NCBI GenBank assembly: GCA_016873215.1
Contig: VGXU01000025.1
Location: 1 to 35,496, forward strand
Length of the DNA: 35,496 bases
Source: Planctomycetota bacterium
Lineage (GTDB): Bacteria; Planctomycetota; Phycisphaerae; Sedimentisphaerales; Anaerohalosphaeraceae
Reading direction: 5' to 3'
In this document: positions 1 through 29,087 of the stretch, in pieces
Layout of the letters: each line of letters starts with the position of its first letter
Position numbering within the stretch: the first letter of the stretch is position 1
The notes under the pieces: model-generated
Told to the model about the DNA's origin: nothing
Seen by the model: only the letters and a program-made list of their open reading frames with translations
Databases searched by the model: none
Translations under genes and position numbers: made by a program

Positions 1-130
1 CAAGTGACAGTAAAATATCACTGTAGGATAATAGCCAGTTCAAATCGATAACAGTTGTTTTTTGCTGTAATATCATGCAATTAAAATAGTTATATCATAA
101 CAGTCTCAAGTTAATGGGACAGTATTGATT

Positions 131-652
131 CTGCATTCTCAATTCCCCACCCATAAGCCCCATTAGACCCATTAGTCCTATCCCGCCTGAAATTTTCTTG
201 TTTATTCTTTATTTTCTCAATTCTAAATTCTGCATTCTCAATTCGCAATACGTTTTATCCAGATAAAACGTATTGCGATTGCACTATCCTGCTATCTTCT
301 AAAATTCCATAAATTTTTAACCCCTTTTCCCATAAAGACTTACATCTTTTCCGCCCTCCAAAAATCACGACTTTTCGACACGGCTGTGCAAGTAGCGGGT
401 AATTACAGTGGGCCGTTTTTCCGCCCTTGTGGTTCTTTGAAAAGTAAATGCGGCCAGCCTTCACAAAACTGCGGAAACTCCGTGTAAAAATAAAAAATCT
501 GAGTCCTGTTTGTCCTGTAAATCCCGTCCAAAAAGTTTTTTTGGAAAAACAAACCCAATTCAAAAATCGACAACTCATTATACGCAAAGGACTAATCTCA
601 AAAACGCAAAATCAAAGCAAACCCAAACAAACCCATTTGTGGATAACTTTAC
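131..652 (-). repeat. Composite dispersed repeat, left copy
   Basis: Read on the minus strand from 652, this matches 28424 onward on the plus strand. Modules occur in the same order: an AAAGTTATCCA start followed by a GGGTT-rich stretch, a roughly 168-base core (442 to 275), and a short module with a doubled TAATGGGTCTAATGGG-type motif (186 to 131). The core aligns to 28633-28802 almost without gaps at roughly 75-80 percent identity by eye. It is non-coding as far as I can tell; family and mobility are unknown. Confidence 0.75.
243..278. repeat. Perfect 16-bp stem inverted repeat
   Basis: Arms 243-258 and 263-278 are perfect reverse complements around a 4-base loop (CCAG). There is no T-tract on either side, so it is not a standard intrinsic terminator. 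It sits exactly where the left repeat copy stops matching the right copy, so it may be a separate small palindromic insertion. Confidence 0.6.
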
Positions 653-2383: not shown

Positions 2384-3820
2384 TTATAAAATGTCTTTGA
2401 GATTAAATTTTGCCAGCTCCGCGCGAACCTGTTCCATTACCTGCCGCAATTTCGGGTTTTGGGTCTGAAAAGACGACTTTTCCACGGCGATACTGATATC
2501 GGCCAGTGTAATATTGGCACCATCAGTTGAAGGTACAAAACCCACAATCGGTTCGGTTGTTTTGCACAATAGATCCGCCCGGGTCAGATTTTCGAGAATA
2601 TGTTCGATAAAATCGGCAGGCAGCGCCGTGGCGTCGGCGATTTCAGAAGGCATAATGGGCTTGCGGCCTTTGTCGTTGAAAGCCTGAAGAACTTCCCGCA
2701 TAATCTGGATAGTTGTCTGTTCAGTCGCGATGAAATTAGTCTGTTTGGCCCGCAGCCGAGCCATTTTTTCGGCTTTTTCGAGCGAATGCACATGCTGCGT
2801 CGCATAGGTCAACTGCAAGCCCATCAGCACAACCCACCAGATAATATAAATCCACAACACCGCCAGCGGGATTAAACCCATAATCCCATAAACCGACTGG
2901 TAAGATGCCTTGGTGACATAAATCCCAAAACCATACTTGGCCGCGGTCCAGAAAATGGCTGCAAACACGGCCCCCAGCAAAGCAGACCGGGGTTTTACTT
3001 TGGCGTTGGGAATGAACATGTACAGAAAAAACATCAATATCATACTCAGCGCAAAGCTGAAAACAGGCTTGATGTACTTAAAAACGCTTTGTAGCAGCGT
3101 CTGTGAAAACGCATATTGTGAACCGTTGGGATCGGAGCTGCTGATGGGACTCCTTACATCAGATTCCTGATGGCTTGGTGGAAACGCATATTGTAAACCG
3201 TTGGGACCGGAGCTACTGATAGGACTCCTTACATCAGATTCCTGATGCGTATGTGGAAACGCATATTGCATGCTTTTTGCGCTCAAATATACGCCCACTC
3301 CTATCAGTAATGGACCCAGTGTCAGCAGTGCCCAGTAGTTGATGGTGCGATGCAGAATGTCGCGAGACTTTGGAACGCCCCAGATGGAGTTAAACGCCTT
3401 TTCAATCGTCGTCAGCAGACTGATCGCTGCCCAGATGGTGAGCAGGCCGCCGATAAATGTTATAGCGCCCGTATTTAGATTGGAAATATAGCTGCCTGTA
3501 ATTTCATCTATTTTTGCCGCCAGTGAAATCTCTTTGCCGCCGGGGGTATCCGAAGGATAACTAATTTTGGTCAGATTGGACTGTTCATAAATAAGCTGCC
3601 TGACTTTATCACCCATATTCTTCGAGGCCGGAAACATCTGAAACACCATCAATATTACAATCGCCAGAGGTACGATACCAAACATCGTGTGATACGCCAG
3701 CGCGGCGGCCTGTGTGCCGCAGCGATTTAGAACCAGCAGGCGGCCGCACTGCCGCAAAACTCGAAAAACCAAAACCGCCTTGTTTGTTTCCGCGTCGTCC
3801 GAGCGAAATTTATCGAACAT
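2384..3820 (-). CDS. YihY/BrkB-family inner-membrane protein with internal tandem repeat
   Basis: This is a 478-residue protein. Hydrophobic segments near residues 40-65, 120-140, 165-185, 250-270, 280-305 and 310-335 follow the YihY/UPF0761 (formerly RNase BN) layout, including an early AALAYHTMFGIVPL motif. A C-terminal soluble tail (about 365-478) resembles a winged-helix segment. Between the third and fourth segments lies a roughly 60-residue insertion built from a 25-residue unit (ESDVRSPISSS...PNG..YAF) repeated twice plus a partial third copy; it is absent from ordinary family members. An AAGGAG site six bases before the ATG supports the start. The gene follows the AsmA-like gene by 32 bases and is probably cotranscribed with it. 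Molecular function is unknown, and the old tRNA-nuclease assignment has been withdrawn. Confidence 0.85.
   Translation of the reverse strand: MFDKFRSDDAETNKAVLVFRVLRQCGRLLVLNRCGTQAAALAYHTMFGIVPLAIVILMVFQMFPASKNMGDKVRQLIYEQSNLTKISYPSDTPGGKEISLAAKIDEITGSYISNLNTGAITFIGGLLTIWAAISLLTTIEKAFNSIWGVPKSRDILHRTINYWALLTLGPLLIGVGVYLSAKSMQYAFPHTHQESDVRSPISSSGPNGLQYAFPPSHQESDVRSPISSSDPNGSQYAFSQTLLQSVFKYIKPVFSFALSMILMFFLYMFIPNAKVKPRSALLGAVFAAIFWTAAKYGFGIYVTKASYQSVYGIMGLIPLAVLWIYIIWWVVLMGLQLTYATQHVHSLEKAEKMARLRAKQTNFIATEQTTIQIMREVLQAFNDKGRKPIMPSEIADATALPADFIEHILENLTRADLLCKTTEPIVGFVPSTDGANITLADISIAVEKSSFQTQNPKLRQVMEQVRAELAKFNLKDIL
3111..3270 (-). repeat. 75-bp in-frame tandem repeat inside YihY-family gene
   Basis: The unit beginning GCATATTG (plus strand) starts at 3111, 3186 and 3261, giving two full 75-bp units and a partial third. 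The period is 25 codons, so the frame is kept. Each unit holds a short palindrome (CATCAG, four bases, CTGATG). The two units differ at only a few positions, so the duplication is recent. Confidence 0.9.
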
Positions 3821-21111: not shown

Positions 21112-21116
21112 ATAAT

Positions 21117-21223
21117 CCTGGCAATCACCTACTTTCACCCCGAAGGACTATCATCGGCCGTACGGGCTTAGCTTCTGAGTTCGGAATGGGATCAGGCGTT
21201 TCCCCGTATGTAAGGTCACCAGG
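21117..21223 (-). rRNA. rrf: 5S ribosomal RNA
   Basis: About 107 bases on the minus strand. The ends CCTGGTGACC and GGTGATTGCCAGG pair to form helix I. The middle contains the conserved CCCATTCCGAACTCAGAAG loop and the GGTGAAAGTAGG-type 3' region. It follows 23S by roughly 110 bases in the usual 23S-5S order. Confidence 0.95.
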
Positions 21224-21334
21224 AAGTTTGGTATCGGTCGCGGAGACCGAAAATTTCAAAACATAGCGGATGCGACTTAAGCGCTTACTGATGCCACACC
21301 TGTGTGCAGCGTCAGCGCACAATCTTTGATTGAT

Positions 21335-24287
<2,953 letters not shown>

Positions 24288-24474
24288 ATATCAATCGAAG
24301 ATTGACTGGCCGCCGCTGACAAACTCAGTTGAGCTTGTCGTGCACAGGTTTATGGCACATAATTAAGCGCTAATTGTAGATTGTTGAAGATAAACAACCC
24401 GGTAATACAAAACACAACACAAAAATGAGAGATTGTCCATCTTACAATCTAAAATATCGCATCCGCTATGTACT

Positions 24475-24486
24475 TGTCAAAGAGCA
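24475..24486 (-). promoter_or_regulatory. boxA antitermination site before 23S
   Basis: On the minus strand the sequence TGCTCTTTGACA closely matches the bacterial rRNA boxA (TGCTCTTTAACA), to which NusB-S10 binds. It lies between tRNA-Ala and 23S, the conserved spacer location. Confidence 0.75.
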
Positions 24487-24549
24487 ATCTATATTCGTCG
24501 GCTTCGTCAAAAACCCGAAACCGTCCGATTCTATTTCATTGCTTCCAAA

Positions 24550-24622
24550 TGGAGACGATGGGAGTCGAACCCACGACCTCTGGCTTGCAAAGCCGGCGCT
24601 CTCCCAACTGAGCTACGTCCCC
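24550..24622 (-). tRNA. tRNA-Ala (anticodon TGC)
   Basis: A 73-base cloverleaf. The acceptor GGGGACG pairs with CGTCTCC (one G-T), the D arm is GCTCAGTTGGGAGAGC, and the anticodon stem-loop is CCGGCTTTGCAAGCCAG with TGC. The T arm is GTGGGTTCGACTCCCAT, with discriminator A. CCA is not encoded. It is second in the spacer pair upstream of 23S. Confidence 0.96.
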
Positions 24623-24636
24623 GAACCCTTGATTCA

Positions 24637-24688
24637 GTTTTGAGTTCTAAGTAAGTTTTTAGTTTTGAATTAATTAGGAACTCAAAAC
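24637..24688. repeat. 11-bp inverted repeat in tRNA spacer
   Basis: Perfect arms 24637-24647 and 24678-24688 flank a 30-base AT-rich loop between the two tRNA genes. The text (ACTCAAAACTCAA-type) resembles the AT-rich filler seen near 27970 and 28870. It could form a processing stem in the precursor. Confidence 0.5.
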
Positions 24689-24707
24689 TCAACACTCAAA
24701 ACTATAC

Positions 24708-24782
<75 letters not shown>

Positions 24783-28158: not shown

Positions 28159-28422
28159 ATGGAAATTTGCGAATTTCAAAAGTTCATCGATAAAAAATAC
28201 GGCAAGCGCGATCGTGAACGCGGCACCGCGGCGACATTTATGTGGTTCGTCGAGGAAATCGGCGAACTGGCCACGGCCCTTGCCGGCGACGACCATGCCA
28301 ATAAAGAAGAAGAATTCGCCGACGTCCTGGCGTGGATGTGCACGTTAGCCAATGTCAATAACGTGGACCTCGAAAAGGCCATCGAAAAATACACCAAAAA
28401 AGGCGTCGAAGGATACAAATAA
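28159..28422 (+). CDS. MazG-like nucleotide pyrophosphohydrolase
   Basis: This is an 87-residue single all-alpha domain. The metal-binding signature is FVEEIGELATAL (EExxE) followed by EEFADVLAWM (ExxD), as in MazG and the iMazG/dUTPase-like group, which hydrolyse NTPs or dNTPs to the monophosphate and pyrophosphate. Length fits the single-domain members. A weak GGAAA lies upstream of the ATG. It stands alone after the Rrf2 terminator. The repeat copy begins directly after its stop codon. The nucleotide preference is unknown. Confidence 0.85.
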   Translation: MEICEFQKFIDKKYGKRDRERGTAATFMWFVEEIGELATALAGDDHANKEEEFADVLAWMCTLANVNNVDLEKAIEKYTKKGVEGYK

Positions 28423-28423
28423 A

Positions 28424-29087
28424 GTTATCCATAATTGGGTTCGTTTCGTTTTTTTGCCTCCATTTCTCACATTCATTTCTGGGTTTTTGATATTGATAAC
28501 GCATATTCGGTCGTGAAAAAATTGGGTTCGTTTTGTAACAGGTATAAAGGGATACAAGTATGCAAGAATTAGAATGGTCCTTCGGCGCTGCTCAGTGCAG
28601 GCTCTGCGGCCGGGGTAAAATTCAAAACTATATTTCAAAGAATCACAGGGGCGGAAAAAAGGCCCTCTGTAATTACCGGGGACTTGCACGCCGGTGTCGA
28701 AAAGTTGTGATTTTTCGGGCGCGGGAAAGCTGTAAGTCTTTATGTGGAATGGGGTTAAAAATCTATGGAATTTTATAAGACAGCAGGATAGTGCAATCGC
28801 AACTGTGACTAAGTATGCAGGTATGGAGGAATGCAGGTATGCAGAGATGGAACAAAGACAAAGGGCAAAAGTTAAAAATCAAAAGGCAAAATTAAGGACA
28901 GCCTATGAGGCTGGACTAATTAAAAAAAGGGGGGGGGGGGTACCACGAAAAACACAAAATATATTTAGACCGGATTAACAAGATAAGAAATTATTTTACC
29001 ACGAAGAATCGAAGGATACGAAAAGAAAGCGGGATAAGACTAATGGGTCTAATGGGTCTTATAGGAGGAAGGTTGAGAATTGAGAAA
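28424..29087 (+). repeat. Composite dispersed repeat, right copy
   Basis: This is the same module order as the left copy, but inverted relative to it in the window: the AAAGTTATCCA start, the core (28633-28802), and the TAATGGGTCT-type module (29029-29087). Between core and last module it carries about 225 extra bases, including a G12 run and an AAAGTTAAAAATCAAAA-type segment. The open frame at 28560-28778 covers the core but has no ribosome site. Confidence 0.75.
28862..28920 (+). repeat. AT-rich AAAGTTAAAAATCAAAA repeat segment, second copy
   Basis: This matches 27958-28016 in module order: the AAAGTTAAAAATCAAAA tract, CAAAATT, GGACAGCC, a short loop and GGCTGGACTA. It lies inside the extra DNA of the right composite repeat. 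Confidence 0.6.

Follow-up and report, generated by a model that had tools for sequence, protein, structure and literature searches.

Two composite repeats and their surroundings

The window analysed here, that is, the whole stretch of 35,496 nt on contig C25 of a Planctomycetota bacterium (Phycisphaerae), contains two composite repeats in opposite orientation, neither of which carries a transposase, as the original prediction had said. A repeat search of the window gives three inverted pairs, 129-186/29029-29086 (83% identity), 273-442/28633-28802 (87%) and 619-657/28414-28452 (82%), with all remaining inverted pairs no longer than 35 nt, and this confirms the predicted three modules on opposite strands, kept in order and separated by unequal spacers. 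Among them, only the middle module is a constant block, called the leader below; the first is part of a variable stretch and the last is part of an array of the 14-nt motif AAACRAACCCAWTT. The motif has four exact occurrences in the window, all within the two copies, and none in 100 shuffles of the window. The features are listed in Table 1, where HGL denotes the protein family described below.

Table 1. Coordinates of the features of the two composite repeats in the window
Feature	Position	Strand	Evidence or remark
Copy 1, variable 5' low-complexity text with ...ATTCTGCATTCTCAATTC... words; includes module 129-186	129..242	+	Similar words in other elements of the genome
Copy 1, 36-nt palindrome TCGCAATACGTTTTATCCAGATAAAACGTATTGCGA	243..278	.	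Some copies have it, copy 2 does not; BLAST matches on both strands
Copy 1, leader (conserved module B)	276..435	+	Leader alignments; profile model match 283-432
Copy 1, filler unique to this copy, separating leader and array, without HGL gene	436..546	+	
Copy 1, motif AAACAAACCCAATT	547..560	+	Exact motif scan
Copy 1, motif AAACAAACCCATTT; GTGGATAACTTT comes next and is the 3' end of the element	625..638	+	Exact motif scan
Copy 2, last motif of the array, AAACGAACCCAATT; a MazG-like gene (28159-28422) has its stop codon 10 nt away	28433..28446	-	
Copy 2, motif AAACGAACCCAATT	28520..28533	-	Exact motif scan
Copy 2, leader (conserved module B)	28640..28799	-	Leader alignments; model match 28644-28786
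Copy 2, variable 5' low-complexity text with the counterpart of 129-186 and a poly-G run	28800..29086	-	

At its 3' end the element reads TTTGTGGATAACTTT (636-650), with TTATCCATA as the counterpart in copy 2 (28423-28437); on the opposite strand TTTGTGGATAACTTT holds TTATCCACA, which we take to be DnaA-box-like. The rRNA operon supposed to lie between the copies is there in part: two tRNAs, 23S and 5S form a tRNA-tRNA-23S-5S cluster at 21116-24782 (minus strand), but no 16S gene lies upstream of it. A partial 16S gene (model positions 9-741) is located on contig C60 instead, being either unlinked to the 23S-5S cluster or split from it by the assembly. The window also has long direct repeats at 12148-12447/15193-15492 (99%), 14887-15186/16583-16882 (94%) and 11808-11994/12840-13026 (88%), as well as a tandem duplication of 75 nt (88%) at 3103-3252.

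A family of dispersed elements

In the genome as a whole (2.69 Mb in 123 contigs; G000 below), BLAST finds 64 matching pieces, which can be grouped into about 24 elements. What was taken for a pair is thus actually two members of a genome-wide family, whose existence had been suspected and is hereby borne out, and the case of only two copies in the genome is excluded. The layout of the elements is variable low-complexity text, then the leader of about 160 nt, then usually no gene, and then same-strand copies of AAACRAACCCAWTT. An HGL gene sits between leader and motif in two copies of this genome, on contigs C1 and C7, and the 36-nt palindrome precedes the leader in some of its copies only. 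The distance from the last motif to the start or stop of the next gene is mostly no more than about 100 nt, and the orientation of that gene shows no clear bias (14 of 23 convergent, by our own reading). By eye, neither terminal inverted repeats nor target duplications are seen in the 24 copies of this genome.

The expectation that KTNPIQ-type translated text recurs in relatives holds as well, since the motif is present in 112 of the 161 genomes of the order. Its copy number ranges from 0 to 286 across these genomes and from 2 to 286 inside one genus. In the genus of G048 and G049, the element is compact, at about 155 nt, and frequently holds two motifs at a distance of 101-102 nt, some of its positions being shared and some different; the comparison of these two genomes, too divergent at about 75% identity, yields neither a clean empty site nor a target duplication. 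Degenerate arrays of short words, such as GAATTCTAAATTCTGCATTCTC, CCTGCATACCTGTATACC and TTCACTATTCACTGCTCACT, adjoin the motifs in many genomes, with words differing between genomes, and are found in the window for example at 187-242 and 28803-29028. At locus L189, a word block of about 70 nt stands at the place where locus L181 has a hairpin repeat. Among the papers listed in our literature searches, none was found to describe the element, the motif or the HGL protein family.

A leader shared with phage-type genes

Blastn of the leader in 40 relatives gives two short weak matches outside the genome studied, so that a profile was needed. The profile built from its 24 leaders also matches leaders outside its own family within the order; after iteration it comprises 72 sequences. 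With a model that uses sequence only, the leader is detected in 29 of the 40 relatives (G000 included), and the leader-bearing genomes include some with neither HGL nor motif. Overall, the motif follows within 1200 nt on the same strand in 70 of 121 unique leaders, namely 19 of 24 in G000 and 51 of 97 elsewhere (the 97 may include the portal leader of G000, through locus L343); none of the 121 has it on the opposite strand downstream, or on any strand upstream; five of the 24 have no exact motif within 1200 nt.

Two blocks of the leader are conserved: TTTTTACYCCTTT-N8-AAnGACTTAC forms a partial dyad, while TTTTCGnnnC...GCAAGTC looks, in G114, like a putative -24/-12 promoter. A structured RNA was considered and rejected: RNAalifold predicts 0 conserved base pairs for a set of 24 leaders and likewise for one of 54, and an Rfam search of ten leader loci up to E 1 returns nothing relevant, only two tRNAs and one sub-threshold match to plastid-ycf2. 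At locus L056 (G009), a perfect dyad GTAAGTCTTTGTTAAGTAAAGACTTAC at 393-428 lies right after a tRNA-like 3' end and resembles the leader dyad, and it is possibly an integration site.

The leader heads genes other than HGL. An HNH signature is present in ORFs at 10 of 29 leader loci in one set, eleven proteins encoded by HNH_3/AP2 endonuclease genes behind the leader have a Pfam HNH_3 match when two locus sets are combined, and further HNH look-alikes, judged by appearance, are found in a set of 40 loci. A DnaB-type helicase gene and a DnaD-like loader gene also stand behind it. In six genomes (G000, G003, G005, G033, G034 and G037, with the G033 protein assigned by eye) the leader precedes an SPP1-type phage portal gene; at the G000 locus, on contig C2, scaffold and SU10-type capsid genes come after the portal gene, and no large terminase is found among the 8 ORFs scanned near it. 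At further leader loci no gene is recognised; none of four scripted features is present at 30 of the 40 leader loci, part of which are portal and HNH loci. A gene for a small sigma-70 region 4-like protein (L344:11154-11603; G000:C2:90168) lies just before a match to the 3' module, at a distance of some 12 kb from the portal cluster.

Portal leaders resemble the dispersed leaders of their own genome (0.63-0.83) more than they resemble other portal leaders (0.50-0.58), and this is so in all five testable genomes. Such likeness within genomes points to one trans-acting regulator or to copying inside each genome.

The HGL protein and its link with the motif

HGL is named after the start of the protein, ANRxNAxKSTGPRTxxGK...NAxxHGL, and represents an all-helical family without a name. 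Its ORFs are found at three places in G000. At C1 and C7 the ORF follows the leader and has a ribosome-binding site, and at the third place, on C32, no leader is seen by eye. HGL is present in 15 of the 40 genomes (G000 included) and in 76 of the 161 genomes of the order; beyond the order, tblastn finds it in records of Bryobacterales, other Acidobacteriota, Dehalococcoidia and Peribacteria. It was found in one plasmid record, from Planctomyces, and in no viral contig or phage searched.

An AlphaFold model of a Dehalococcoidia HGL protein is all-helical, with mean pLDDT 78 and pTM 0.61. No Pfam family scores above cut-off, and transposase models give no match up to E 1; NCBIfam gives no match, and neither the PDB (by sequence and by fold) nor BFVD gives a significant one, so that these database searches recognise neither a known fold nor a known domain or catalytic motif; the best VIA-align Z is 7.9, a value that common helical arrangements also give. 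Against small terminases, matches are weak and limited to phrog_1889, at E 0.046 and 0.048, so that HGL is a weak candidate for a small terminase, considered further only in the packaging reading below.

The presence of HGL and that of the motif go together. At least three motifs are found in 67 of 76 genomes with HGL versus 19 of 85 without it (Fisher 9e-18, a value which treats genomes as independent, which they are not), the median count being 17 and 0, respectively. By genus the figures are 33 of 40 versus 8 of 44 (p 7e-10, one value per genus), and where a genus holds both states, the mean is higher in genomes with HGL in 10 of 12 cases (sign test p 0.039). The motif pattern read backwards is nearly absent from the 161 genomes. 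Exceptions exist in both directions: three genomes have HGL and no motif, while G059, G128 and G071, in which HGL is not detected, hold 87, 44 and 44 motifs.

The position of the motif relative to HGL tells more than these counts. When 800 nt on either side of 35 distinct HGL ORFs are scanned, with one mismatch allowed, the motif lies downstream sense in 16 and downstream antisense in none, versus upstream sense in two and upstream antisense in one, where the strand is the informative part, because many loci were fetched by motif or leader and their fractions are biased. In six of the 35 it falls inside the HGL open frame. The same link is seen across phyla, as in Dehalococcoidia, where the HGL gene is followed by TTTTACCAAACAAACCCAATTTTC; the motif is present in Acidobacteriota and Chloroflexota, and among 11 genomes reached via HGL loci seven have exact motifs and four have none.

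Motif arrays as cassettes

In G114, which has 286 motifs, long same-strand arrays come after a leader that is a homologue of module B. There, 109 motif-delimited cassettes from 16 regions measure 31-285 nt (median 72); 31 of them belong to 10 families common within or between arrays, in differing order and neighbourhood, and the other 78 are unique. This sharing suggests that cassettes are exchanged at the motif. A CRISPR array was rejected for G114, given units of 31-285 nt instead of near-constant spacers and cassettes that recur across arrays.

Interpretation and alternatives

The observations point away from a simple inversion hot spot and towards an undescribed mobile DNA family. In our main reading, to which we give a probability of about 0.68, the family consists of selfish modular interspersed elements with a phage-type control region, and the window repeats are ORF-less copies. 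It builds on the family itself, on the order and strand of its modules, on the link between HGL and motif, on the leader common to phage genes and on the resemblance of leaders within genomes. The complete form would comprise a leader, an HGL gene and a sense-strand array of the motif; most copies would have retained leader and array, with the gene lost or replaced, and those in the window would be decayed or gene-less. Because leaders of the same genome also head portal/capsid and HNH/AP2 endonuclease genes, its likeliest role is transcriptional control of a phage type, through a promoter and a dyad operator. HGL most likely binds DNA and acts on the motif. The arrays seem to change by swapping motif-delimited cassettes between copies, and the whole element may multiply as selfish DNA within genomes, by active transposition or copying.

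The original prediction saw in the two window copies a means to invert the region between them, in keeping with their opposite orientation on one contig. The analysis lends this no support: the two leader-bearing copies are 87% identical with a longest exact shared stretch of 21 nt, and some 22 other copies lie elsewhere in the genome. The left flank is absent from the contig, which starts 128 nt from copy 1, so that synteny on this side is unreadable; the neighbouring phosphatase gene has distant matches in relatives (34-51% identity) and no usable orthologues. We regard an inversion hot spot as very improbable, hardly above an artefact of assembly or binning, which we set lowest of all. The latter would agree with contigs C12, C21 and C34 ending at or near copies, as repeats make contigs do in draft assemblies, but the longer pieces differ (74-95% identity) and adjoin many different genes, and the same architecture is found in independent genomes.

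A non-autonomous transposon of the REP/MITE type, with its transposase encoded elsewhere and HGL as a passenger gene, fits the fact that most copies have no gene, and AAAGGGGTCAGGTAC and GTCATTCCGGCGAAGGCCGGAAT, in or beside copies, are what we recognise as RAYT-like text. We consider it unlikely, however, in view of a motif that is not palindromic, of the lack of a visible terminal inverted repeat, and of an HGL-motif link which spans the families of the order and other phyla, more than a passenger should show. Slightly less probable again is a regulon without mobility, in which the leader would be a domesticated phage or GTA-like promoter and the arrays regulatory or packaging targets under selection. 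It would account for the leader in front of the portal-scaffold-capsid cluster of G000 and for the likeness of portal and dispersed leaders within genomes; against it stand the wide range of motif numbers, in the order and even in one genus, the mosaic make-up of the elements with decayed fillers, and the lack of a clear bias in the orientation of the next gene. About as doubtful as the transposon is the idea that the arrays are packaging-start (pac-like) sites recognised by HGL as a small-terminase-like protein. The motif in or just after the HGL gene, its indifference to reading frame, its strict strand polarity, the shared leader and the two weak small-terminase matches gave rise to this idea, and pac sites lie in or by terS. 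The portal/scaffold/capsid module under the same leader would then complete a system that packages chromosomal DNA from start sites which are dispersed, oriented by strand and number dozens to hundreds, and host DNA adjoining each element would be preferentially exported.

Comparison with known systems

Several known systems share features with the selfish elements proposed here. BOX elements are laid out as boxA-boxB-boxC. In Streptococcus pneumoniae they are described as intergenic interspersed repeats of many copies, judged parasitic and some with ORFs (PMC3049150), and by that description the elements here are likewise interspersed, intergenic and multi-copy, with ORFs in some copies. Compared with this description, the differences are an associated protein family, a leader common to phage genes, and a spread over an order and further phyla, while BOX is known in few species. 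REP/REPIN sequences are short, dispersed and tied to the RAYT gene family, and both systems have a gene beside the repeat and many gene-less copies (PMC3116915); REPs are palindromic and RAYTs are tyrosine (HUH) transposases, whereas AAACRAACCCAWTT is not self-complementary and HGL shows no such domain.

Phage-inducible chromosomal islands (PICI) and gene transfer agents (GTA) combine a small terminase with a pac site (PMC6854486, on the GTA small terminase), and in the elements here the gene of a possible DNA-binding protein likewise adjoins a repeated site with a direction. A probable phage-type control region and portal/scaffold/capsid genes on the chromosome are a further likeness, with the phage head genes on C2 of G000 standing behind the same leader as the dispersed elements. 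The lack of a large terminase among the 8 ORFs scanned around the portal gene and the marginal E values of HGL against small terminases set them apart. In integrons, a head element is followed by same-strand cassettes, which are delimited by a recurrent site and reshuffled between arrays. The leader-headed arrays show the same plan of head element and reshuffled same-strand cassettes, but their cassettes are too short for ordinary genes and the site is not palindromic.

The analysis joins three unexplained things, namely the KTNPIQ-type intergenic text of Planctomycetota assemblies, a nameless widespread protein family, and a leader that phage head genes have in common with the elements. Should the elements be mobile, they would represent a bacterial repeat class with its own protein, across several phyla. 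If the arrays are packaging or regulatory targets, they would offer directly testable predictions on how genes are transferred in a phylum for which genetic tools are scarce.
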